Source of the DNA: Arthrobacter globiformis
GTDB lineage: Bacteria; Actinomycetota; Actinomycetes; Actinomycetales; Micrococcaceae
Reading direction: 5' to 3'
Length of the DNA: 64,000 bases
NCBI RefSeq assembly: GCF_003261175.1
Contig: NZ_QLNP01000007.1
Coordinates: 1 to 64,000, forward strand
The notes beneath the pieces are model-generated. The model was not told the DNA's origin and searched no databases. It saw only the letters and a program-made list of their open reading frames with translations. The stretch's first letter is position 1. The number at the start of each line of letters is the position of its first letter. Position numbers and translations under genes: made by a program. Positions 709-10,151 of this stretch are shown here, piece after piece.

Positions 709-2067
709 GTGCACAAAGTACCCTTGGGGACTGTGAAGGTACTCGTCATTGGCCCCGGCGGCCGCGAACACGCCATTGTCCGCTCCCTCCTTGCCGACCC
801 CAACGTTTCCGAAGTCCACGCGGCTCCGGGCAACGCGGGCATCAGCAAGCTCGTCCCCACGCACGCGATCAACGGGAATGATCCGGAGGCGGTGGCGGCG
901 CTCGCCACCCGGCTGGACGTTGACCTGGTGGTCGTTGGCCCCGAAGCTCCCCTTGCGGCCGGTGTGTCCGACGCCGTGCGCGCCGCCGGCATCCCGGTGT
1001 TCGGGCCCAGCAAGGACGCCGCCCAGCTCGAGGCCTCCAAGGCCTATGCGAAGCAGGTCATGGCCGAAGCCGGCGTTCCGACGGCGATGGCTTTGGTGGC
1101 TGCCAACGCGGACGAGGCAGCGGCGGCGCTGGACACCTTCGGCGCTCCGTACGTCGTCAAGGATGATGGTCTCGCCGCAGGCAAGGGCGTGGTTGTCACT
1201 AACAACCGGGACGACGCCCTGGCCCACGCCCAGAGCTGCTTCGACGCCGGCGGAACGGTGGTCATCGAGGAGTTCCTGGACGGCCCCGAGGTCTCCGTGT
1301 TCGTCCTGTGCGACGGCCGCAACACCGTGGCACTGTCCCCGGCGCAGGACTTCAAGCGCATCTACGACAACGACGAAGGCCCCAACACCGGCGGCATGGG
1401 CGCGTACACCCCGCTTGACTGGGCTCCTGAGGGCCTTGTCCAGGAGGTCATCGAACGCATCGCCCAGCCCACCGTGGACGAGATGGCCCGCCGCGGCACC
1501 CCGTTCGTGGGCGTGCTGTTCGTCGGCCTGGCGCTGACCAAGCGCGGCACGCGCGTCATCGAATTCAACGTCCGCTTCGGCGACCCCGAAACCCAGGCCG
1601 TGCTCGCACGGCTCAAGACGCCCCTCGGTTCCCTGCTCCTGTCAGCCGCCAAGGGCGAACTGGACCAGGCAGAAGAGCTGCGCTGGTCCAAGGACACGGC
1701 AGTCGCCGTCGTCGTTGCCTCTGAAAACTACCCCGACACTCCGCGCACGGGTGACCGGATCCGCGGCCTTAAGAAGGTTGACGAGCTGGACGGCGTCCAC
1801 GTGATCCACGCCGGCACCAAGCTCGACGGCGAGGGCAAGGTGGTCTCCGCCGGCGGAAGGGTTCTGGCCGTGGTGGCGCTCGGATCCGACCTCGTGGAGG
1901 CACGGGAAAGGGCGTACGACGGCGTGGAGCTGGTTCAGCTGGAAGGCGCCCAGTTCCGCACGGACATCGCAGGCAAGGCCGCACGCGGCGAAATCAAGGT
2001 GTCGTCCGCCGTCGCCGCCCCGTCGGCTGCTGCCCAGGCCGGCTCCGCTTCGGAAGAAAAGGCGTAA
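709..2067 (+). CDS. purD: Phosphoribosylamine-glycine ligase (GAR synthetase)
   Basis: Second step of de novo purine synthesis: ATP-dependent ligation of glycine to phosphoribosylamine. The N-terminal domain has VLVIGPGGREHAI. The ATP-grasp part includes VVKDDGLAAGKGVVV and the metal-binding end EFNVRFGDPETQ. At 452 residues it is slightly longer than the usual 420-430 because of an Ala/Ser-rich C-terminal tail. The GTG at 709 is chosen because AGGAG lies at 696-700 with an 8-nt spacer; an internal GTG at 733 would start exactly at the conserved VKVLVIG but has no well-placed ribosome site. purC follows after 3 nt, so the two are co-transcribed. Confidence 0.97.
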   Translation: MHKVPLGTVKVLVIGPGGREHAIVRSLLADPNVSEVHAAPGNAGISKLVPTHAINGNDPEAVAALATRLDVDLVVVGPEAPLAAGVSDAVRAAGIPVFGPSKDAAQLEASKAYAKQVMAEAGVPTAMALVAANADEAAAALDTFGAPYVVKDDGLAAGKGVVVTNNRDDALAHAQSCFDAGGTVVIEEFLDGPEVSVFVLCDGRNTVALSPAQDFKRIYDNDEGPNTGGMGAYTPLDWAPEGLVQEVIERIAQPTVDEMARRGTPFVGVLFVGLALTKRGTRVIEFNVRFGDPETQAVLARLKTPLGSLLLSAAKGELDQAEELRWSKDTAVAVVVASENYPDTPRTGDRIRGLKKVDELDGVHVIHAGTKLDGEGKVVSAGGRVLAVVALGSDLVEARERAYDGVELVQLEGAQFRTDIAGKAARGEIKVSSAVAAPSAAAQAGSASEEKA

Positions 2068-2070
2068 CCG

Positions 2071-3009
2071 GTGGCTGAACAGGAAAACACCCGCGGCTTG
2101 GACACCCCCCACGCGGAGCTGCCAGGCTGGAAGCACGTGTACTCGGGCAAGGTCCGCGACCTGTACGAGCCGGCCAGCGATGCCATCAACGAGCAGTTCG
2201 GGCAGGAATGCGTGCTGGTGGTCGCGAGCGACCGCATCAGCGCGTACGACCACGTGCTCAGCAGCGAAATCCCGGACAAGGGACGCATCCTGACCCAGCT
2301 GAGCCTCTGGTGGTTCGACCAGCTGGATGTCGAACACCATGTCCTGGCGTCCACGGTGGAGGAGGGCGTGCCCGCAGCTGTCGAGGGCCGCGCCATGATC
2401 TGCAAGAAGCTGGAAATGTTCCCGGTGGAATGCATCGCCCGCGGCTACCTCACCGGCTCCGGCCTCGTGGAGTACCGGCAGTCCGGCACCGTCTGCGAGA
2501 TCCCGCTGCCCGAGGGCCTGGTGGACGGCTCCCGCTTGGAGCACGCCATCTTCACCCCGTCGGCCAAGGCCGAGGTGGGCGAGCACGACGAGAACATCAC
2601 CTACGACGCCGTCGTGTCCATCGTGGGAGACGATATTGCCGCGCGACTGAGCGAACTGACGCTGGATATCTACACCAAGGCCGAGAGGATCGCCCGTGAA
2701 CGGGGCATCGTCCTGGCCGACACCAAGGTGGAGTTTGGCTACGACGTCGTGAACGGTGCCATCACCCTGGGCGACGAGGTCCTGACGCCTGACTCGTCCC
2801 GGTTCTGGGACGCCGCCACGTACGAGCCCGGCAAGGCGCAGCCCTCCTACGACAAGCAGTTCGTCCGGGACTGGCTGACGTCCGCCGAATCCGGCTGGGA
2901 CAAGGCCTCCGACACGCCGCCGCCGGCCCTGCCCGCGGACATCGTGGACCGCACCCGGGCCCGCTACGTCGAGGCCTACGAGAAGCTGACCGGCCGCACG
3001 TTCGGCTAG
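2071..3009 (+). CDS. purC: Phosphoribosylaminoimidazole-succinocarboxamide synthase
   Basis: Makes SAICAR from CAIR and aspartate in purine synthesis. The 312-residue protein shows the SAICAR synthase signatures: YSGKVRDLYE near the N terminus (nucleotide-binding region), VVASDRISAYD, ECIARGYLTGSG and LADTKVEFGYD. The length fits the longer single-domain type. The GTG start lies 3 nt after the purD stop, and the pair ends at a strong hairpin. No other pur genes are adjacent in the window. Confidence 0.97.
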   Translation: MAEQENTRGLDTPHAELPGWKHVYSGKVRDLYEPASDAINEQFGQECVLVVASDRISAYDHVLSSEIPDKGRILTQLSLWWFDQLDVEHHVLASTVEEGVPAAVEGRAMICKKLEMFPVECIARGYLTGSGLVEYRQSGTVCEIPLPEGLVDGSRLEHAIFTPSAKAEVGEHDENITYDAVVSIVGDDIAARLSELTLDIYTKAERIARERGIVLADTKVEFGYDVVNGAITLGDEVLTPDSSRFWDAATYEPGKAQPSYDKQFVRDWLTSAESGWDKASDTPPPALPADIVDRTRARYVEAYEKLTGRTFG

Positions 3010-3079: not shown

Positions 3080-4342
3080 CTAGCTGGCTTCGGCCGCTGC
3101 CGCACGGCGCTGGGCGAGCCGGATCTCCAGCACGGCATCGAGGGCCTGCTGGACCCGGTCCTGTGCGCCGGCGGCACTGAATTCCTTCTGCGCCTCCTCC
3201 AAATGCACCAGCGCCTCATCCCCTTCGCCCGCAGCCTTCAATGATTTACCGAGAAGCAGCGAAACTTCGCCGGCCGTGTGCTTGGCAAGGTCCTTGCGTT
3301 CGGCGTGGATGTCGCGGAGCTTCTGGACGGCGGCCACGATGTCGCCGGTGAGGTACAGCCAGCGGGCACGGATGAAGGCGACTTCCAGCTGGTCCGTCTT
3401 GTTCCCGCCGACGATGGACAGCGCGAGTTCGGCGCGTTCAATGGCGGACAGGGTCTCCGGCTCAACAATTCCGGAGGAGAGGCGGACGGCGGCTGACGCC
3501 TTGTTGAAGCGGGCCCACAGCTCAATGTCGTTGGCGGGCGAGAGCAGCTTCGCCGCCCGCTCGTGGTGCTTGATGCCCTCCGGGTAGTCGTGCCGCATGA
3601 ACGCGACATTGCCGATCACCCATGCCACCTCACCTGCGAGCTGGGACATCGAACGCTCGTCCATCTGCTCGTTCATGTCCTGGCAGTACTTCCAGGCCTC
3701 GTCCAGCCGCCCGCTCTCGGCCAGGGCGCCAATCAGCGCCCGGAGCGCGCCGATGATCAGCGTTGAGCCCTTGGGCAGCTGCGCGCACAGTTCCACCGCC
3801 TTCTCGGCGTGCTCGACGGCGGTGCCCAGCTGTCCCTGTCCGTGGCACAGGGCGGCGAGCATCTGGCGTGCCCGGACACCGAGGCCGGCCGACTCGGTGG
3901 CCATGGGGTGCTCGGACAGGTGCTCCATGATCTTCTGGCATTCCTTGAGCTGGCCCTGCTTCATGAGGCATTCGGCCTGCATGTAGGTCATGTTCCACCA
4001 GGCGCTGGTGTTCTTGCCGTCGAGTGCGATCCGGGCCGCGTTGGCGGCGTGCTCGGCGGCGAGGGCGTAGTCGCGCAGGTCCCAGGCCTGCCGGGCATAG
4101 AGGCCGGCCAGCACGTATTCGGCGTCGCTGACCGAGATGGGCTGGCTCCATGCTTCGAGCGCTTTCGGCGCGAGCTCCAGCCTGCGGGCGAGCTCTTCGA
4201 TGACGTCGGCTGTGGGTTCCCGCCGGCCGGTTTCCAGCAGGGAAATGTAGCTGGGGGAGTAGAGGTCCCGGCCGAGTTCGGCCTGAGTCAGTCCGCGCTC
4301 CAGCCGCTCAGCGCGGAGCTTCTCCCCGAATCCGTTACCCAC
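3080..4342 (-). CDS. XRE-family regulator with C-terminal TPR repeats (RRNPP-like receptor candidate)
   Basis: 420 residues. The N-terminal helix-turn-helix (about residues 4-60) contains FGEKLRAERLERGLTQAELG and SYISLLETGRREPT, a standard XRE DNA-binding domain. The remaining 350 or so residues are all-helical with repeated TPR-like units (for example ALAAEHAANAARIA, TAVEHAEKAVELC and YPEGIKHHERAAKLL). An N-terminal XRE domain plus a TPR array is the architecture of Rgg/PlcR/NprR-type receptors that bind short imported peptides. The GTG start at 4342 has AGGAGG at 4355-4350 with a 7-nt spacer. The gene is divergent from a small gene encoding a secreted peptide with three identical octapeptides, which makes a receptor-pheromone pairing attractive. 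Ligand binding is inferred; it could also be an unrelated TPR regulator. Confidence 0.85.
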   Translation of the reverse strand: MGNGFGEKLRAERLERGLTQAELGRDLYSPSYISLLETGRREPTADVIEELARRLELAPKALEAWSQPISVSDAEYVLAGLYARQAWDLRDYALAAEHAANAARIALDGKNTSAWWNMTYMQAECLMKQGQLKECQKIMEHLSEHPMATESAGLGVRARQMLAALCHGQGQLGTAVEHAEKAVELCAQLPKGSTLIIGALRALIGALAESGRLDEAWKYCQDMNEQMDERSMSQLAGEVAWVIGNVAFMRHDYPEGIKHHERAAKLLSPANDIELWARFNKASAAVRLSSGIVEPETLSAIERAELALSIVGGNKTDQLEVAFIRARWLYLTGDIVAAVQKLRDIHAERKDLAKHTAGEVSLLLGKSLKAAGEGDEALVHLEEAQKEFSAAGAQDRVQQALDAVLEIRLAQRRAAAAEAS

Positions 4343-4382
4343 TGGGGTTCCTCCTATTCCGGACAGCCTTTGTACAGAATGC

Positions 4383-4413
4383 TTGACACCCTCTGTGGAA
4401 AACATTTTACAAT
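4383..4413 (+). promoter_or_regulatory. Promoter of the peptide gene
   Basis: Perfect -35 hexamer TTGACA at 4383-4388 and TACAAT at 4408-4413 (one mismatch to TATAAT), separated by 19 nt, which is longer than the optimal 17. The peptide gene start lies 63 nt downstream. The long spacer may mean that activation by the adjacent regulator is needed, which is an inference. Confidence 0.6.
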
Positions 4414-4422
4414 ATATGTCAA
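4383..4422. promoter_or_regulatory. Inverted TTGACA/TGTCAA pair in the divergent intergenic region
   Basis: TTGACA at 4383-4388 and TGTCAA at 4417-4422 are exact inverted copies flanking an AT-rich core between the XRE-TPR gene and the peptide gene. They may be the -35 elements of two face-to-face promoters, or the half sites of the regulator's operator. A clear -10 for the minus direction at the expected distance is not visible. Confidence 0.45.
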
Positions 4423-4475
4423 CAAGGACTGTGCTGACTTGGTAACGAATCCGACTCGTATTGAGGAACTCTCAC

Positions 4476-4709
4476 ATGTTGAAGAAGATAGCAGCCGCTG
4501 CCGTTTTGGCGGGGGCCCTCGCATTTTCTGCTGCGGCTCCCGCCGTTCTGTCTGCAGGCTCGATCGCGGACAACGCGGGCACCTCTGTTGCCATTGGCAA
4601 CTGGCCGGATCCGATGCGCGTCAAGGACGTGAACACGACCACTATCGGCAATTGGCCTGATCCCATGGTGTCAAAGACCACCATTGGCAACTGGCCCGAT
4701 CCCATGTAA
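4476..4709 (+). CDS. Secreted pro-peptide with three IGNWPDPM repeats (candidate pheromone precursor)
   Basis: 77 residues. The N terminus MLKKIAAAAVLAGALAF with following Ala-rich residues is a signal peptide; possible signal peptidase sites follow APA (residue 23) or LSA (residue 27). The octapeptide IGNWPDPM occurs at residues 40-47, 57-64 and 70-77, the last copy being the exact C terminus. The linkers (RVKDVNTTT and VSKTT) are unrelated to each other. The repeat DNA copies differ at codons 1, 3, 5 and 7 only by synonymous changes, so the peptide itself is conserved. The ATG has GAGGA at 4463-4467 with an 8-nt spacer; a TTG at 4461 is a weaker alternative. Divergent from the XRE-TPR gene and followed by its own terminator. 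Most likely a multi-copy signalling peptide precursor. A secreted toxin or adhesive peptide is possible. Confidence 0.85.
   Translation: MLKKIAAAAVLAGALAFSAAAPAVLSAGSIADNAGTSVAIGNWPDPMRVKDVNTTTIGNWPDPMVSKTTIGNWPDPM
4593..4706 (+). repeat. Three in-frame 24-bp repeats encoding IGNWPDPM
   Basis: Copies at 4593-4616, 4644-4667 and 4683-4706, in frame with the peptide gene. All differences between copies are third-base and silent (ATT/ATC, AAC/AAT, CCG/CCT/CCC and CCG/CCC). Confidence 0.95.
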
Positions 4710-4724
4710 ACAGCTTCCATGAGG

Positions 4725-4769
4725 AAAACGGCCCCGGAGCATGCGCACATCATGTTCCGGGGCCGTTTT
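4725..4769 (+). terminator. Intrinsic terminator of the peptide gene
   Basis: A 14-bp perfect stem (4725-4738 with 4756-4769) has a 17-nt loop and ends in a T run. It separates the peptide gene from the next gene, so the peptide is probably made from a monocistronic mRNA. Confidence 0.9.
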
Positions 4770-4826
4770 TCTTACCAGAAATGCTTTCTTGCCAGGAACA
4801 GCAGCCGTAACTAAGGAGTGGGGACC

Positions 4827-5180
4827 ATGACACGGAAAGCAGCCGGGGGCCTGCAGCGGGCCTTTTTCCTCTGGACGATCGCCGGCACGTCACTGATTGT
4901 GGCAGCCGCTGCCGGAGCAGCCGTGGTTGAGGTGTTCAGGGGAACGGCCGACGCCGGGACTTTCGTTTGGGGGATGATCGGCATTGCGGCGCTGCTGGAG
5001 TCATTGGTGCTTTTCGCCGTCGGCCTGCGTCTGCGCCACCGCTACCTGAACCAGGTCCAAAGCTACGACAGCCGCGGCGACTACCTGGCGGACGACGGGT
5101 CCAGCCGGCCGAGGATCCCCCTGCTGGGCGACGGGCAGGCGACCCAGAACATCCGCAACCAGAGCCTGGGCGGAAACTAA
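4827..5180 (+). CDS. Small two-helix membrane protein, function unknown
   Basis: 117 residues. Two predicted transmembrane helices span about residues 13-37 (FFLWTIAGTSLIVAAAAG) and 48-70 (FVWGMIGIAALLESLVLF). A basic segment RLRHRYLNQ and a polar tail of about 40 residues follow. AAGGAG at 4813-4818 with an 8-nt spacer supports the ATG at 4827. I do not recognise a family. It lies just after the peptide gene but behind a terminator, so a role in peptide export or sensing is only a positional guess. Confidence 0.75.
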   Translation: MTRKAAGGLQRAFFLWTIAGTSLIVAAAAGAAVVEVFRGTADAGTFVWGMIGIAALLESLVLFAVGLRLRHRYLNQVQSYDSRGDYLADDGSSRPRIPLLGDGQATQNIRNQSLGGN

Positions 5181-5219
5181 GCCCGCACGGGTGGGCGTGA
5201 GCCGTACCCCGAAGAAACA

Positions 5220-5257
5220 GGAAGAGGGCCTCCTCTGGGGGAGACCCTCTTTCCTTT

Positions 5258-5258
<1 letters not shown>
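5220..5258. terminator. Hairpin terminator between membrane protein and tRNA-Pro
   Basis: GGAAGAGGG at 5220-5228 pairs with CCCTCTTTCC at 5245-5254 (one bulge), followed by TTTT. It sits between the convergent membrane-protein gene and the 3' end of tRNA-Pro. Confidence 0.75.
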
Positions 5259-5334
<76 letters not shown>

Positions 5335-5417
5335 ATCCGCTGCTGCGAAAGCAACTGAACAAGAATATCCGATACTGACCAACAAGTGAAATCGGGGTCT
5401 GGAAGAGCCGGGGTGGC

Positions 5418-7295
5418 TCAGACCAGCGAGTCCTTCCAGGCGCTGTGCAGCCGAGCAAAGCGGCCGTTGCCGCCGATCAGTTCATCCGGGGTTCCGTCCT
5501 CCACCACTTGTCCGTCATGGACCACGAGCACCCTGTCCGCCGTCTCCACGGTCGACAGCCGGTGCGCAATGATCAGCGCCGTGCGGGCCGTTCCGCGGGA
5601 CGTTCCGTCGGCGGTCGGCGTTCCCCCAGTTGCGTCGCCGGTGCCGTCCGGTCCGCGCAGGAGCCCCGCGAGGCCGCTCTGCACGAGCCGTTCGGAGGGG
5701 ATGTCCAGCGAGGATGTGGCCTCGTCCAGGATCAGGACCGCCGGCCGGGCAAGGAACGCGCGCGCGAAGCTGATCAATTGGCGCTGGCCCGCGGAGACAC
5801 GGCCGCCGCGCTTGTTGACGTCAGTGTCGTATCCCTCGGGGAGTTCCATGATGAACTCGTGCGCACCCACGGCCTTAGCGGCCGCCTCGATCTCCTCGCG
5901 CGCTGCCCCCGGCCGGCCCAGGGCGATGTTGTCGGCCACCGAGCCGCTAAACAGGAAGGCCTCCTGAGTCACCATCACAATGTTCCGCCGCAGGTCCGCG
6001 GTGGCCAGCTGCCGGACGTCCACACCGTCGAGCGTCACGCAACCGGCGGACACGTCATAGAAGCGGGCAATCAGCTTGGCCAGCGTGGACTTGCCGGCCC
6101 CGGTCTGGCCCACCAGCGCCACGGTCTGTCCCGACGGAATGCTGAGGTTCAGCGTGGGAATGATGAGAGGCCCGGCGCCGTAGCGGAACTCGACGTTCCG
6201 AAATTCAACGGCGCCACGGGCATCGCGGAGTTCCACCGCGTTCCGCGGCGGGCGCACCGTAGGCACCTCCTCGAGCAGGCCCGAGACCTTCTCCAGCGCA
6301 GCCTGCGCGCTTTGAAAGGAGTTGTAGAACATGGCCATCTGGTCCACGGGCTGGAAGAAGCGCTTCGTGGAGAGCATCAGGGCCAGCAGCACGCCCACGG
6401 CCAGCTCACCGGTCAGCACCCGGAAGCCGCCGAACAGCAGCACGGCGGCCACACAGACGTTACCGATCAGCACCAGGCCCGGCTGGAAGACGCCGTTCAG
6501 GTTGATGGACCGGACGGTCGCCCGCCGGTAGTCCTCGGCGAGTTCGCCGTAGCGGCCGGCGTTTTCGCGTTCCTTGCGGAAGGCCTTGACCGCCCGGATG
6601 CCGGTCATGGTCTCGATGAAGTGCACGATGAGCCGGGCCGAGACCACCCGGGACTGGCGGAACGCCATCTGTGAGTGCTTCTGGTACCAGCGCGCCAGAA
6701 AGAACATGGGGACGGCCGCGGCCAGCACCACCAGTCCGCTGCGCCAGTCCAGGGCGAATACGGTGACGGCCGTGAACAGCATGAACAGCGCACCCGAGGC
6801 GAGCGAGCTGACCCCCGAGTCCAGGAGTTCACGCAGAGCCTCCAGGTCCGACGTCTGCCGGGCGATAATCCGCCCCGAGGTGTACTTCTCGTGGAACTCG
6901 AGGCTGAGCCGCTGGGTGTGGCGGAACACCCACAGCCGCAGGTCCAGCAGCATCGCCTGGCTGAGTGCCGCCGTCGACGTTACGTACAGGGCGGTGAGCC
7001 CGGCGGCTGCCAGCGCCGTGATGAGGTAGGCCACGCCGGCCAGCACCAGCGGAAGGCTGTTGCCCGCACGGAGGGCGGGCAACGCGTGGTCGATGCCGAA
7101 GGCGATCAGCGCCGGGCCGGCCACCCTGGCCGCCTGCGACAGGACCACCGTGGCGATCGTGAGCCAGAACCGCAGCCGCACGGGACGGATCAGCGACCCC
7201 AGCAAGGCGAGCGACCGGCGTCGTACGGCCTTGCTGTCGCTCTTGCTGAGGTTGGCGTCGTCCTCATTGGCGGTACCGAAGGCTGTGTTGCTCAC
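5418..7295 (-). CDS. ABC exporter half-transporter, catalytically complete subunit
   Basis: 625 residues: six-helix ABC exporter membrane domain (about 25-330) followed by the nucleotide-binding domain (about 365-620). The NBD has Walker [10 protein letters not shown], an altered signature VSAGQ (usually LSGGQ), Walker [13 protein letters not shown] with the catalytic Glu, and the switch His in IAHRLST. A Thr/Gly/Asp-rich insertion lies between Walker B and the H loop. The GTG start overlaps the stop of the upstream ABC gene by 4 nt, so the two are coupled and probably form a heterodimer. The substrate (drug, lipid or peptide) cannot be told from sequence. Confidence 0.92.
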
Positions 7296-9109
7296 CGGCT
7301 GACCTCCTCGGCGTCGTCGAGGGCCGAAAGCTCGGAGTCCAGGTCGCGGGGCTCCGTTTCCAGGCTCGCGATCACGTGACGGTAATGGCTGTTGCCGGCC
7401 AGCAGTTCGGCGTGGGTTCCGACGGCGGCGATGCGGCCGTCCTCCAGCAGCGCCACCCGGTCGGCCAGCGCGACGGTGGACGGGCGGTGGGCGACGATCA
7501 GCGTCGTGGTGCCGGCCAGCATCTCCCGCAGCCGGTTTTTCACGAGCTCCTCCGTGTTCACGTCCAGGGCGGAGAGGGGATCGTCCAGAACCAACACAGC
7601 GGGCGCGGCTGCGATGGCCCGGGCCAGGGCGAGGCGCTGGCGCTGGCCGCCGGACAGGCTGAGGCCCTCCTCGCCGATGAGGGTGTCCAGCCCCTCGGGC
7701 AGCGAGTAAGCGAAGTGTGCCTGCGCCGTGTCCAGGGCCTCGGCAAGGATCTTTTCCCGGGTTTCGGTGTCTTCGGACTGGACGCCGAGCAGCACGTTGT
7801 CGCGCACCGAACTGGAGAACAGGGTGGTGTCCTCGAAGGCCACGGCCACCAGGGTGCGGAGTTCCTCGATGCTGAAGTCCCGCAGGTCCACGCCGTCGAG
7901 CTCTATGGAACCTGCCGTGACATCGTAGAGCCGCGGCACCAGCTGCAGCAGGGCACTCTTGCCGCTGCCGGTGATGCCCACCAGTGCCATCGTTTCGCCC
8001 GGGCAGATGTCCAGCCGGACGTCCTTCAGCACCGGTTTGTCCGGGGCGTCGTCGAAGGCGAACGTTACGTTGTTGAAGCTCAGCGCGCCTTTGACGTCGG
8101 CCGGGCGGCGGGGTTCGGCCGCGCCGGTAATGGTGTTTTGGGAATCCATGACCTCGAAGTGCCGGTCCAGCGCGGTTTTCGCCGTCAGCGCCATGGCCAG
8201 CAGCATCCCGGAGAACTCGACGGGCGCAGCGACGACGGCGGCGGTGGCGAAGAAGGCCACGAGGGAGCCGATGCTGAGCCGGCCGCTGGCTGCGAGCATG
8301 ATTCCAGTGACCAGGCCCGCGCCCAGCGCCAGCTCGGGCAGCAGCGTCACCACCATGCTGAAGACGGCCTGGTGCCGGGCCTTGGCAATCTCCGTCTGGC
8401 GCAGTTCCTCGGCCTGGCCGTTGAAGGTTTGGAGAGCTTCGCGGCTGCGGCCGAAGGCCTTCAGGACACGGATGCCGTGGACGGACTCTTCAACGGTGGT
8501 GGCGAGGTCGCCGGCCTGGTCCTGGCTGCGCCGGGCAACCTTGCTGAAGCGGGTACGGAACCGGAAACCGTAGACCATCACGGGTCCTGCTGCGGCCAGG
8601 AAGATCAGGGCAAGCTGCCAGCTCATGGTGAACATGACGACGACGCCGATCACCACCGTCAGGGTGGTTACCACCAGCATGATGGCCCCGAATGCCATCC
8701 AGCGCCGGATGAAGTTGAGGTCCGTCATGGCGCGGGAGAGCAGCTGGCCCGAGCCCCAGCGGTCATGGAAGGAGACGGGAAGGTCCTGCAGATGGCCGTA
8801 GAGCGAGACCCTCATCCTGGTCTCCACGGTGGTGGCCGGATTGATCACGAAGGTGCGGCGGAGGGCGACCAGCACGGCTTCGGCGACGCCCAGGGCAAGG
8901 ATGAGGCCGGCCGAGCCCCAGACGGCTTCCGCGGTGGCCCCGGGCCGGAGGGAATCGTTGATGAGTACGCGCAGCACCTGCGGGATGGCAAGGGCAACAA
9001 CACTGGCCAGGAGCGCCGAGAGCAGGCCCATAAGCAGGCGTGGCAGGACCGGCTTCACGTGCGGATAGAGACGGCTGACGGATCGAAAAAATGAACTCTG
9101 CTTGGCCAT
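7292..9109 (-). CDS. ABC exporter half-transporter, degenerate-site subunit
   Basis: 605 residues with an exporter membrane domain and a C-terminal NBD. Walker A is GITGSGKSA and the signature is canonical [14 protein letters not shown], but Walker B reads [12 protein letters not shown], with Asp where the catalytic Glu normally sits. The H-loop His is kept (VAHRPST). The partner gene has the intact Walker B but the altered signature, so the pair predicts one consensus and one degenerate ATP site, as in the TM287/288, BmrCD and LmrCD type. First gene of the two-gene operon; ATG start. Confidence 0.92.
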
Positions 9110-9146
9110 GCCCGCTTCTTGAACTCAGCTCTGTGAAGGCTCTGGT

Positions 9147-9167
9147 GTAGTTTCCCGTAGCAACTAC
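9147..9167. promoter_or_regulatory. Inverted repeat upstream of the ABC exporter operon
   Basis: GTAGTT (9147-9152) and AACTAC (9162-9167) form a 6-bp inverted repeat with a 9-nt spacer, 38 nt upstream of the exporter start. It resembles an operator, but no regulator gene lies next to it in this window. Confidence 0.35.
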
Positions 9168-9203
9168 CCTATGCCATGGGTGACACCCTTCGCAGGTGGC
9201 TCG

Positions 9204-10151
9204 TCAGGCGCGGGGGGTGAGCGTCAGCAGGACGGCCTCGGGCTTGCAGGCGATGCGGACCGGCGCAAAGCGCGAGGTGCCGATGCCGCCTGAGACGTTG
9301 ACCGGCGTCGTACGCCCGTTGCTGCTCCAGTCGTTGAGTCCCTTGGCCCGCCAGGTGGGGATGTCGCAGTTCGCGACGAGGGCGCCGTACCCCGGGATGC
9401 ACAGCTGGCCGCCATGCGTGTGGCCGGCCAGGAGAAGGTCCGCGCCGTCCTCGGTGAAGTGGTCCAGGACCCGCTGGTAGGGGGCATGGATGACGGCGAC
9501 GCGCAGGTGGTCCTTGGCGTTCTGGCCTCGGGTGCCGCGGGGCCAGCCGGCATACCGTTCACGGTTGAGGTGCGGATCATCCACGCCCGAGAAATCGAAC
9601 CGCAGGCCGTTGAGGACGATGGACTGTTGCCGGTTGGTCAGGTCGATCCAGCCGCCCATTCCGAAGCCGGACCGCAGGCGGGGCCAGTCCAGTTCCTCCC
9701 TGTCGGCTGCCGCCTTGGAGGGGCCCAACAGGTAGCGGGCCGGGTTCTTCAGCTTCGGCGCGTAGTAGTCATTGGATCCCGGAACAAACACTCCCGGAAA
9801 CTCCATGAGCGGTGCCAAGGCGTTGAGCAGCGGGTCCACGGCCTTGGGGTGGCTGAGGTTGTCACCGGTGTTCACCACAAGATCGGGCCTGAGCGCCGCG
9901 AGCGACTGCAGCCACTCGGCCTTGGCCTTCTGGCCCGGCACGAAGTGGATGTCGCTCAGGTGCAGGATCCGGAAAGGGGCCCTGCCCTCGGGAAGGATCG
10001 GGACGGTCTCCTCGCGGAGGACGAACTGGTTCTTTTCCCAGAGCCCGTAGGCCGTGGCGGCGAGGGCGGCCGCGGTCCCGGCGCCGGCGGCGACGGCAAA
10101 GCCGCGCCCGATGCTACGGACGCGGCTCGCCACCTGTGAAAGGTCAGTCAC
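9204..10151 (-). CDS. Membrane-anchored metallophosphoesterase
   Basis: 315 residues. A hydrophobic N-terminal segment (about 18-37) is followed by a calcineurin-like phosphoesterase domain with the metal-ligand blocks HLSDIHF, VNTGDN, PGSNDYY and GHTHGGQ. The third block has Ser-Asn-Asp in place of the usual Asn-His-Asp, so the catalytic His is replaced. Otherwise close to the YkuE group. The GTG start lies 2 nt after the stop of the PonA-type gene, so translation is probably coupled. From memory, the same gene pair occurs in mycobacteria (Rv3682-Rv3683). Substrate unknown; a cell-envelope phosphoester or UDP-sugar lipid is plausible. Confidence 0.88.
   Translation of the reverse strand: MTDLSQVASRVRSIGRGFAVAAGAGTAAALAATAYGLWEKNQFVLREETVPILPEGRAPFRILHLSDIHFVPGQKAKAEWLQSLAALRPDLVVNTGDNLSHPKAVDPLLNALAPLMEFPGVFVPGSNDYYAPKLKNPARYLLGPSKAAADREELDWPRLRSGFGMGGWIDLTNRQQSIVLNGLRFDFSGVDDPHLNRERYAGWPRGTRGQNAKDHLRVAVIHAPYQRVLDHFTEDGADLLLAGHTHGGQLCIPGYGALVANCDIPTWRAKGLNDWSSNGRTTPVNVSGGIGTSRFAPVRIACKPEAVLLTLTPRA

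Follow-up and report, generated by a model that had tools for sequence, protein, structure and literature searches.

The locus considered here raises the question of whether a small gene and the regulator gene lying back to back with it, in a window of 64,000 nucleotides of Arthrobacter DNA (the whole stretch that was analysed), form a circuit in which bacteria signal to one another by a peptide. According to the available part of PMC10075063, actinobacteria typically signal through small molecules, and signalling by peptides is a feature of Bacillota; for Arthrobacter, the available part of a review of actinobacterial quorum sensing gives only LuxR-like and related predictions (PMC4748050). 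The string 'NWPDPM' occurs in no paper of open-licence PubMed Central. Based on the comparison of genomes below, we consider it probable (about 0.8) that the two genes constitute an RRNPP-type peptide-pheromone, quorum-sensing-like circuit of Micrococcaceae-like actinobacteria.

Results

Genes of the cassette

The first-pass annotation had described a 77-residue secreted-looking protein with three copies of IGNWPDPM, the last at the C terminus, and an XRE-TPR gene divergent from it; both are present as described, and the outer bounds of the pair hold (Table 1). The receptor protein matches HTH_31 (E 1.6e-11) and TPR_12 (E 9.9e-8) in Pfam. An alternative, longer receptor ORF starts with ATG at 4405, and the GTG start is preferred because a start codon stands at the same residue in 30 of 36 aligned relatives. 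The precursor has no Pfam match up to E 1 and two NCBIfam matches, both far under the cut-off, and the DNA of its three octapeptide copies differs at silent positions only.

Table 1. Features of the cassette and its surroundings in the window, and positions of the viral micro-ORFs
Feature	Position	Strand	Remark
XRE-HTH + TPR receptor gene	3080..4342	-	420 aa, GTG start at 4342, stop included
Pheromone precursor (candidate)	4476..4709	+	77 aa, signal-peptide-like N-terminus, three IGNWPDPM; ATG at 4476, stop at 4707-4709, included
Octapeptide copy 1, IGNWPDPM	4593..4616	+	sequence match
Octapeptide copy 2, IGNWPDPM	4644..4667	+	sequence match
Octapeptide copy 3, IGNWPDPM	4683..4706	+	exact C terminus, stop from 4707
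Conserved intergenic block	4382..4427	.	consensus from 125 loci: CTTGACAG.C.CTGTGGAAaacATTTTACAATGtaTGTCAACAaGG; lies between both genes, candidate promoter/operator
Terminator-like inverted repeat AACGGCCCCGGA...TCCGGGGCCGTT + short T run	4727..4770	+	3' of precursor, read by eye
Phosphoribosylglycinamide synthetase	709..2067		Pfam neighbour
SAICAR synthetase	2071..3009		Pfam neighbour
Small membrane-type protein	4827..5180		3' of cassette
Exporter-type ABC gene	5418..7295		Pfam
Exporter-type ABC gene	7292..9109		Pfam
Viral micro-ORFs	L159 5138; L162 1979; L165 2211; L168 663		
Viral micro-ORFs	L161 2418-2438; L163 9316-9336	-	

With 3 mismatches or fewer, the 20-nt core of the intergenic block matches a single place in its own genome and has no second site there, and it was not found upstream of 23 unlinked genes. 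With no second site for the core in the genome, the circuit may chiefly regulate itself or act via other regulators. The inverted repeat behind the precursor is absent from the output of the hairpin scan, which was restricted to loops of 3-8 nt. Two exporter-type ABC genes lie near the cassette, so the export route need not be Sec, and this pair is a possible route for the peptide. The genome also encodes six oligopeptide-binding (SBP_bac_5) proteins, none of them tied to IGNWPDPM. Note also that the small membrane-type protein 3' of the cassette, with nothing above the Pfam cut-off, is found beside the cassette in several near relatives too.

Conservation within the genus

A receptor match (E <= 1e-20) was obtained in all 121 genus genomes drawn, being split, shortened or broken in three of them (G053, G073, G093), and each genome has, 124-146 nt from the receptor start, a divergent frame that begins with M-x-K-K and a hydrophobic run. 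This beginning was itself the search criterion for precursors, the signal being judged by pattern and without SignalP, and the precursors were located by way of the receptor, so that the figure of 121/121 covers receptor-linked precursors. Thus the small precursor adjacent to the receptor, as looked for in RRNPP systems, was found throughout the genus sample, with a signal assigned by pattern and with the protein ending exactly on the final GxWP copy in 120 of the 121. The observation is real and not due to chance, because NWPDPM occurs in 97 of the 121 genomes against two for the reversed control pattern, and because a precursor stands beside the receptor match in every genome; the central claim of the first-pass annotation, a multi-copy secreted precursor paired with a divergent XRE-TPR receptor, is in this way borne out. 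The relatives named, among the 80 of 141 loci listed, are Arthrobacter, Pseudarthrobacter and Paenarthrobacter; a receptor of 99% identity is encoded by A. globiformis NBRC 12137.

The precursors carry one, two, three or four GxWP copies in 2, 70, 30 and 19 genomes, respectively. Counting each genome once per form, the octapeptide reads IGNWPDPM in 53 genomes, VGNWPDPM in 39, IGNWPDPA in 9, IGNWPDPV in 7, TGNWPDPV in 6, VGNWPDPA in 4 and TGNWPDPM in 4, with rarer forms besides. When the upstream DNA of all 121 genomes and of four further genus genomes was inspected (125 loci), the last eight residues, taken with no motif filter, were G in 124 precursors, N in 123, W in 124, P in 124, D in 119, P in 123 and M in 97, preceded at the first of the eight by I (65), V (42), T (12), S (5) or G (1), while the eight positions in front of them hold 7-14 different residues each. 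Exceptions to the fixed word are a single SGNWPYPV at L068 and the L031 group, where three M copies are followed by a last one in V. The earlier copy counts had used a pattern demanding G-x-W-P, and the unfiltered recount added seven degenerate copies, an extra GNWADQL in each of seven genomes.

Pairing the copies that belong to one gene, with at most 3 mismatches allowed, gave 301 pairs: in 234 of them different DNA encodes one and the same heptapeptide, in 24 the DNA is identical and in 43 the protein differs. The near-fixed C-terminal eight residues and the mostly silent differences between copies point to selection on the peptide itself, as had been proposed from the window alone. It might be argued that tandem-repeat small proteins are common and that the repeats are neutral low-complexity sequence in a coincidental neighbourhood. 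With the conservation in 121/121 genomes, the mostly silent differences and the near-empty reversed-pattern controls, the probability of this explanation is very small, and chance repeats were rejected.

The variants of the peptide follow the receptor. In a FastTree tree of 122 receptors, from which three incomplete ones of the 125 (L123, L189, L200) were left out, the first copy switches motif type 6 times, as compared with at least 21 times in 200 label shuffles. For the receptors in the tree this shows a peptide type inherited with the receptor, i.e. common descent and not specificity. Among the receptor columns that track the last motif residue, 8 of the 12 highest fall at 174-224, with kinship uncontrolled; since relatedness is uncontrolled, a reading of residues 174-224 as the peptide-binding site was not adopted. 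What the genomes show at the level of sequence is thus a conserved divergent pair, a constrained repeat peptide and variants that follow receptor lineages.

The tracking of receptor lineages bears on another explanation, in which the small protein is secreted as an effector, such as an antimicrobial or surface peptide, and the XRE-TPR protein merely regulates it while sensing something else. Such an effector could well be a small, secreted-looking, multi-copy protein adjoining a regulator, and with the two exporter-type ABC genes the surroundings are compatible with an antimicrobial-type gene group. It would be hard to reconcile, however, with peptide variants that go with receptor lineages, with a W-P precursor kept beside a paralogue that matches outside the HTH, and with leaderless and viral copies that hold little besides the octapeptide (see below), and we regard it as very unlikely.

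Kinship of the receptor

The receptor has the size and architecture of RRNPP receptors, with an N-terminal XRE HTH, C-terminal TPRs and 420 aa, the range for RRNPP-type receptors being about 250-500 aa in the available part of PMC10075063. In the receptor set A1, HTH_31 is matched by 36 of 37 members and TPR_12 by 27 of 37, and the Pfam matches listed for the window protein (15) and for A1 (25 of 41) comprise only generic HTH- or TPR-like models. A single receptor sequence matches PlcR through the HTH only (E 0.027), whereas the receptor profile matches PlcR (2qfc) in one colinear stretch, profile positions 4-198, through HTH and TPR (E 8.6e-10). Judged by this profile, the kinship of the receptor with PlcR, a named RRNPP receptor, extends past the HTH. 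It is noted that PPR/TPR proteins that are designed according to their titles or, for some of them, as we take them to be, outrank PlcR in the profile search, which means that similarity of the solenoid type comes cheaply.

Spread in the family, order and phylum

Of 197 family genomes, 88, from 17 of 32 genera, match the receptor or else its TPR part alone; in the order sample 18 of 297 genomes do so, 15 of which belong to the family. A search of other genomes for XRE-TPR genes with NWPDPM-like repeats had been recommended in the first-pass annotation: [IV]GNWPD is present in 30 of the 197 family genomes, namely in 29 of the 88 with a receptor or TPR-paralogue match and in 1 of the 109 without. 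The latter, G241, has one copy, and the reversed control likewise hits one genome. In the two nearest other genera, GNWPD precursors stand at all 14 loci (L041-L054). Outside the genus the repeat copies are often not at the protein end (one precursor, at L048, has a single intact copy), and the peptide word drifts but W-P stays.

At the remoter receptor-like loci, where frames were picked by a W-P filter without control windows, a divergent small W-P frame was seen at 14 of 31, with words such as GNWPDA, GIWPNS, WIWPDS, GDWPH, GEWPH, GNWPDR and GGSWPT. No W-P precursor was found at the other 17 of the 31; some of these loci hold an additional receptor, the precursor of that genome standing at its main locus. 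Other W-P words are repeated beside remote receptors at L175, L090 and L093 (GGSWPT three times; GDWPH several times).

When a 37-receptor profile was run against 346 genomes of the phylum, 32 gave a match, in many cases limited to the HTH. At 12 of 28 phylum loci (10 genera), these being the loci given minus the own genome and its near twin, there is a divergent secreted-type mini-precursor with WP in the last ten residues, with endings such as GYPWPK, AANWPHH and SAGWPKH. This criterion was chosen after the loci had been viewed; applied identically to controls, it picked out 3 of 338 windows in the same loci and 7 of 560 triplet-shuffled stretches. Two further W-P precursor counts overlap the 12/28 set and are not independent, seven loci coming from the same genomes; besides these seven W-P loci they hold one locus with W without P and five with none. 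At L318 a same-strand frame ends in ASIEWP.

A second receptor-like gene

The own genome has a second receptor match, at C9, which spans residues 66-397 only and thus lies outside the HTH. In the group of this paralogue a GAF histidine kinase is encoded upstream and DUF7793 and GGDEF-EAL proteins downstream, and beside the TPR paralogue an antisense frame of secreted type ends in SVGWWPH. At 20 loci of TPR paralogues, where frames were filtered for W near the end without control windows, a divergent small W-P frame occurs in 18, of which 10 have (I/V)GWWP(N/H/D). At L032 the GAF histidine kinase, the antisense SVGWWPH precursor, the TPR protein, DUF7793 and the GGDEF-EAL protein stand together at 4315-9486. 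We propose this region as a candidate second peptide circuit beside c-di-GMP genes.

Copies away from the receptor

The pair is found in 121/121 genus genomes. The repeats occur elsewhere too, in leaderless genes, something that the first-pass annotation had not anticipated: in some genus genomes NWPDPM is also found away from the receptor (at least 24 loci). At 18 of the 24 such loci fetched, an octapeptide frame without a signal peptide stands behind GTCAGGAG, starting 76-90 nt past a gene that ends in [FVY]DPGS[SR]PD; L059, near 9793-9970, is an example. At four others a longer frame terminates in the octapeptide; another has an 11-residue frame, MNRIGNWPDPM; at the last, L080, the motif looks like chance. 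The four longer frames (L060 at 9131, L102, L108 and L115) have no clear signal peptide and end exactly in IGNWPDPM. The leader of 76-90 nt is G+C-rich, and in it GACTGA/TCAGTC can pair over the Shine-Dalgarno sequence, as folded without a shuffle control. Several leaderless genes mix IGNWPDPM with IGWWPDAM or IGWWPNTM, hinting that their products might concern both receptors.

Viral micro-ORFs

GNWPDPM was found in 10 viral contigs, with a stop directly after the motif in 8; each of two codon-permuted control patterns hit one viral contig, neither with a stop after the motif. By their flanks, the 10 contigs are seven distinct sequences, five of them with the direct stop: three have MRIGNWPDPM, each preceded by an AGGAG stretch, and the other two are MMSTIGNWPDPM and a 53-residue membrane-type frame ending in IVGNWPDPM. 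The sixth is MIGNWPDPMGGDDA, whose GTG overlaps the stop of the preceding frame, and in the seventh, L164, rejected as a candidate, the motif lies within a chance-looking frame. The micro-ORFs have 10-14 residues and no export signal. At L159, L162 and L165 a next frame could begin at a GTG that overlaps the final ATGTGA. The viral matches to NWPDPA-stop (1 contig) and GWWPN-stop (11 contigs) lie in chance-like frames, and mimicry is therefore claimed for the NWPDPM form only.

The hints at the hosts of the viral contigs are mixed, with Arthrobacter phages dominating for L159 only (14 phage records, 11 of Arthrobacter). For L165, where terminase and portal genes lie downstream of the micro-ORF, 230 phage records matched; coverage was best for Microbacterium phages, at 20% of the query, and Klebsiella phages supplied the largest number of records, 113, of which those listed cover 2%; a 151-nt query around its micro-ORF gave one weak match to a human-gut phage (E 2). 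A stretch of L161 several kb from the micro-ORF matches Vibrio, Gordonia and Mycobacterium phages. In the stretches read of Persistence and Anekin, two phages of Arthrobacter, no such micro-ORF was present. Viral matches to the receptor, from scans that could miss remote receptors, were in the HTH range only (2 viral contigs and 1 phage record), and the arrangement of AimR-AimP, where the phage encodes both receptor and signal peptide, was not seen in them.

Discussion

Proposed circuit

In the circuit that we propose, the precursor would leave the cell by the Sec route or, alternatively, through the nearby ABC pair; proteases would free the C-terminal peptide, IGNWPDPM, VGNWPDPM or a slightly shorter form; and an oligopeptide permease would re-import it. 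The peptide would then bind the TPR groove of the receptor and alter DNA binding at the intergenic block, and this change would set the expression of the precursor and of further targets. The leaderless host genes and the phage micro-ORFs having the same peptide most likely act on the receptor from inside the cell, in which case phages could set the signal state of the host directly.

These copies are also the chief argument for another explanation, that reading of the peptide is confined to the cell interior, as an internal alarm and not in cell-to-cell signalling, with the secreted precursor being a by-product or slow-release form and with the receptor sensing peptide that comes from leaderless genes, from breakdown of the precursor or from phage. 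Leaderless octapeptide genes at 18 loci with a conserved gene end and a leader of 76-90 nt, and viral micro-ORFs devoid of an export signal, speak for such a mechanism; yet the product of the gene linked to the receptor begins with a signal-peptide-like stretch in 121/121 genomes, by the search criterion, and the paralogue precursors (18/20) and distant mini-precursors are likewise signal-like by criterion. We therefore consider purely internal reading unlikely and retain the secreted pheromone as the preferred explanation.

A wider proposal, to which we give slightly less than even odds, is that the Actinomycetota have an old W-P peptide language read through PlcR-like XRE-TPR receptors, with phages and leaderless host genes, in Arthrobacter and its relatives, producing the ready peptide within the cell (MRIGNWPDPM and similar) and bypassing secretion and re-import. 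If it is true, phages would force or silence a group decision of the host during infection, a receptor-less mimicry of an intracellular pheromone; for such mimicry no precedent was found in the portion of open-licence PubMed Central that was accessible. The viral copies suggest that viruses may feed false messages into bacterial signalling, and they would give a clean handle on the phage manipulation of host communication. Moreover, a conserved circuit in abundant soil actinobacteria would open the peptide signalling of the phylum to testing with synthetic octapeptides.

Comparison with known systems

In the PlcR-PapR system, PapR is a small secreted precursor adjacent to PlcR, and the cassette has the same constituents, an XRE-HTH and TPR receptor with a small secreted precursor beside it. 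PlcR-PapR belongs to Bacillota, whereas the present system lies in another phylum and has a divergent gene order and a W-P peptide core; unlike PlcR-PapR, it has 2-4 peptide copies in 119 of 121 genus genomes and is present in all 121 drawn. The layout of the paralogue circuit is reminiscent of Rap-Phr. Rap lacks an HTH, and so does the aligned part of the paralogue, which here adjoins c-di-GMP genes. Phages use such peptides in the AimR system; they carry their own receptor there, whereas the viral contigs here carry a leaderless copy of the host peptide.

Among NprR-NprX, Rap-Phr and AimR-AimP (RRNPPA) there are precursors that contain the mature peptide several times over, according to the available part of PMC9765709, and the cassette shares this trait; for Rgg and ComR that part of the source reports no multi-copy precursors found (PMC9765709). 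In Rgg-SHP and ComR-ComS of Streptococcus, short precursors are exported by PptAB and not by the standard route, as given in the same part (PMC9765709). These short precursors resemble the unlinked leaderless genes and viral micro-ORFs described here, and ComR matches the receptor profile by the HTH only. The two systems differ from the cassette, in which the precursor linked to the receptor begins in a Sec-like manner.
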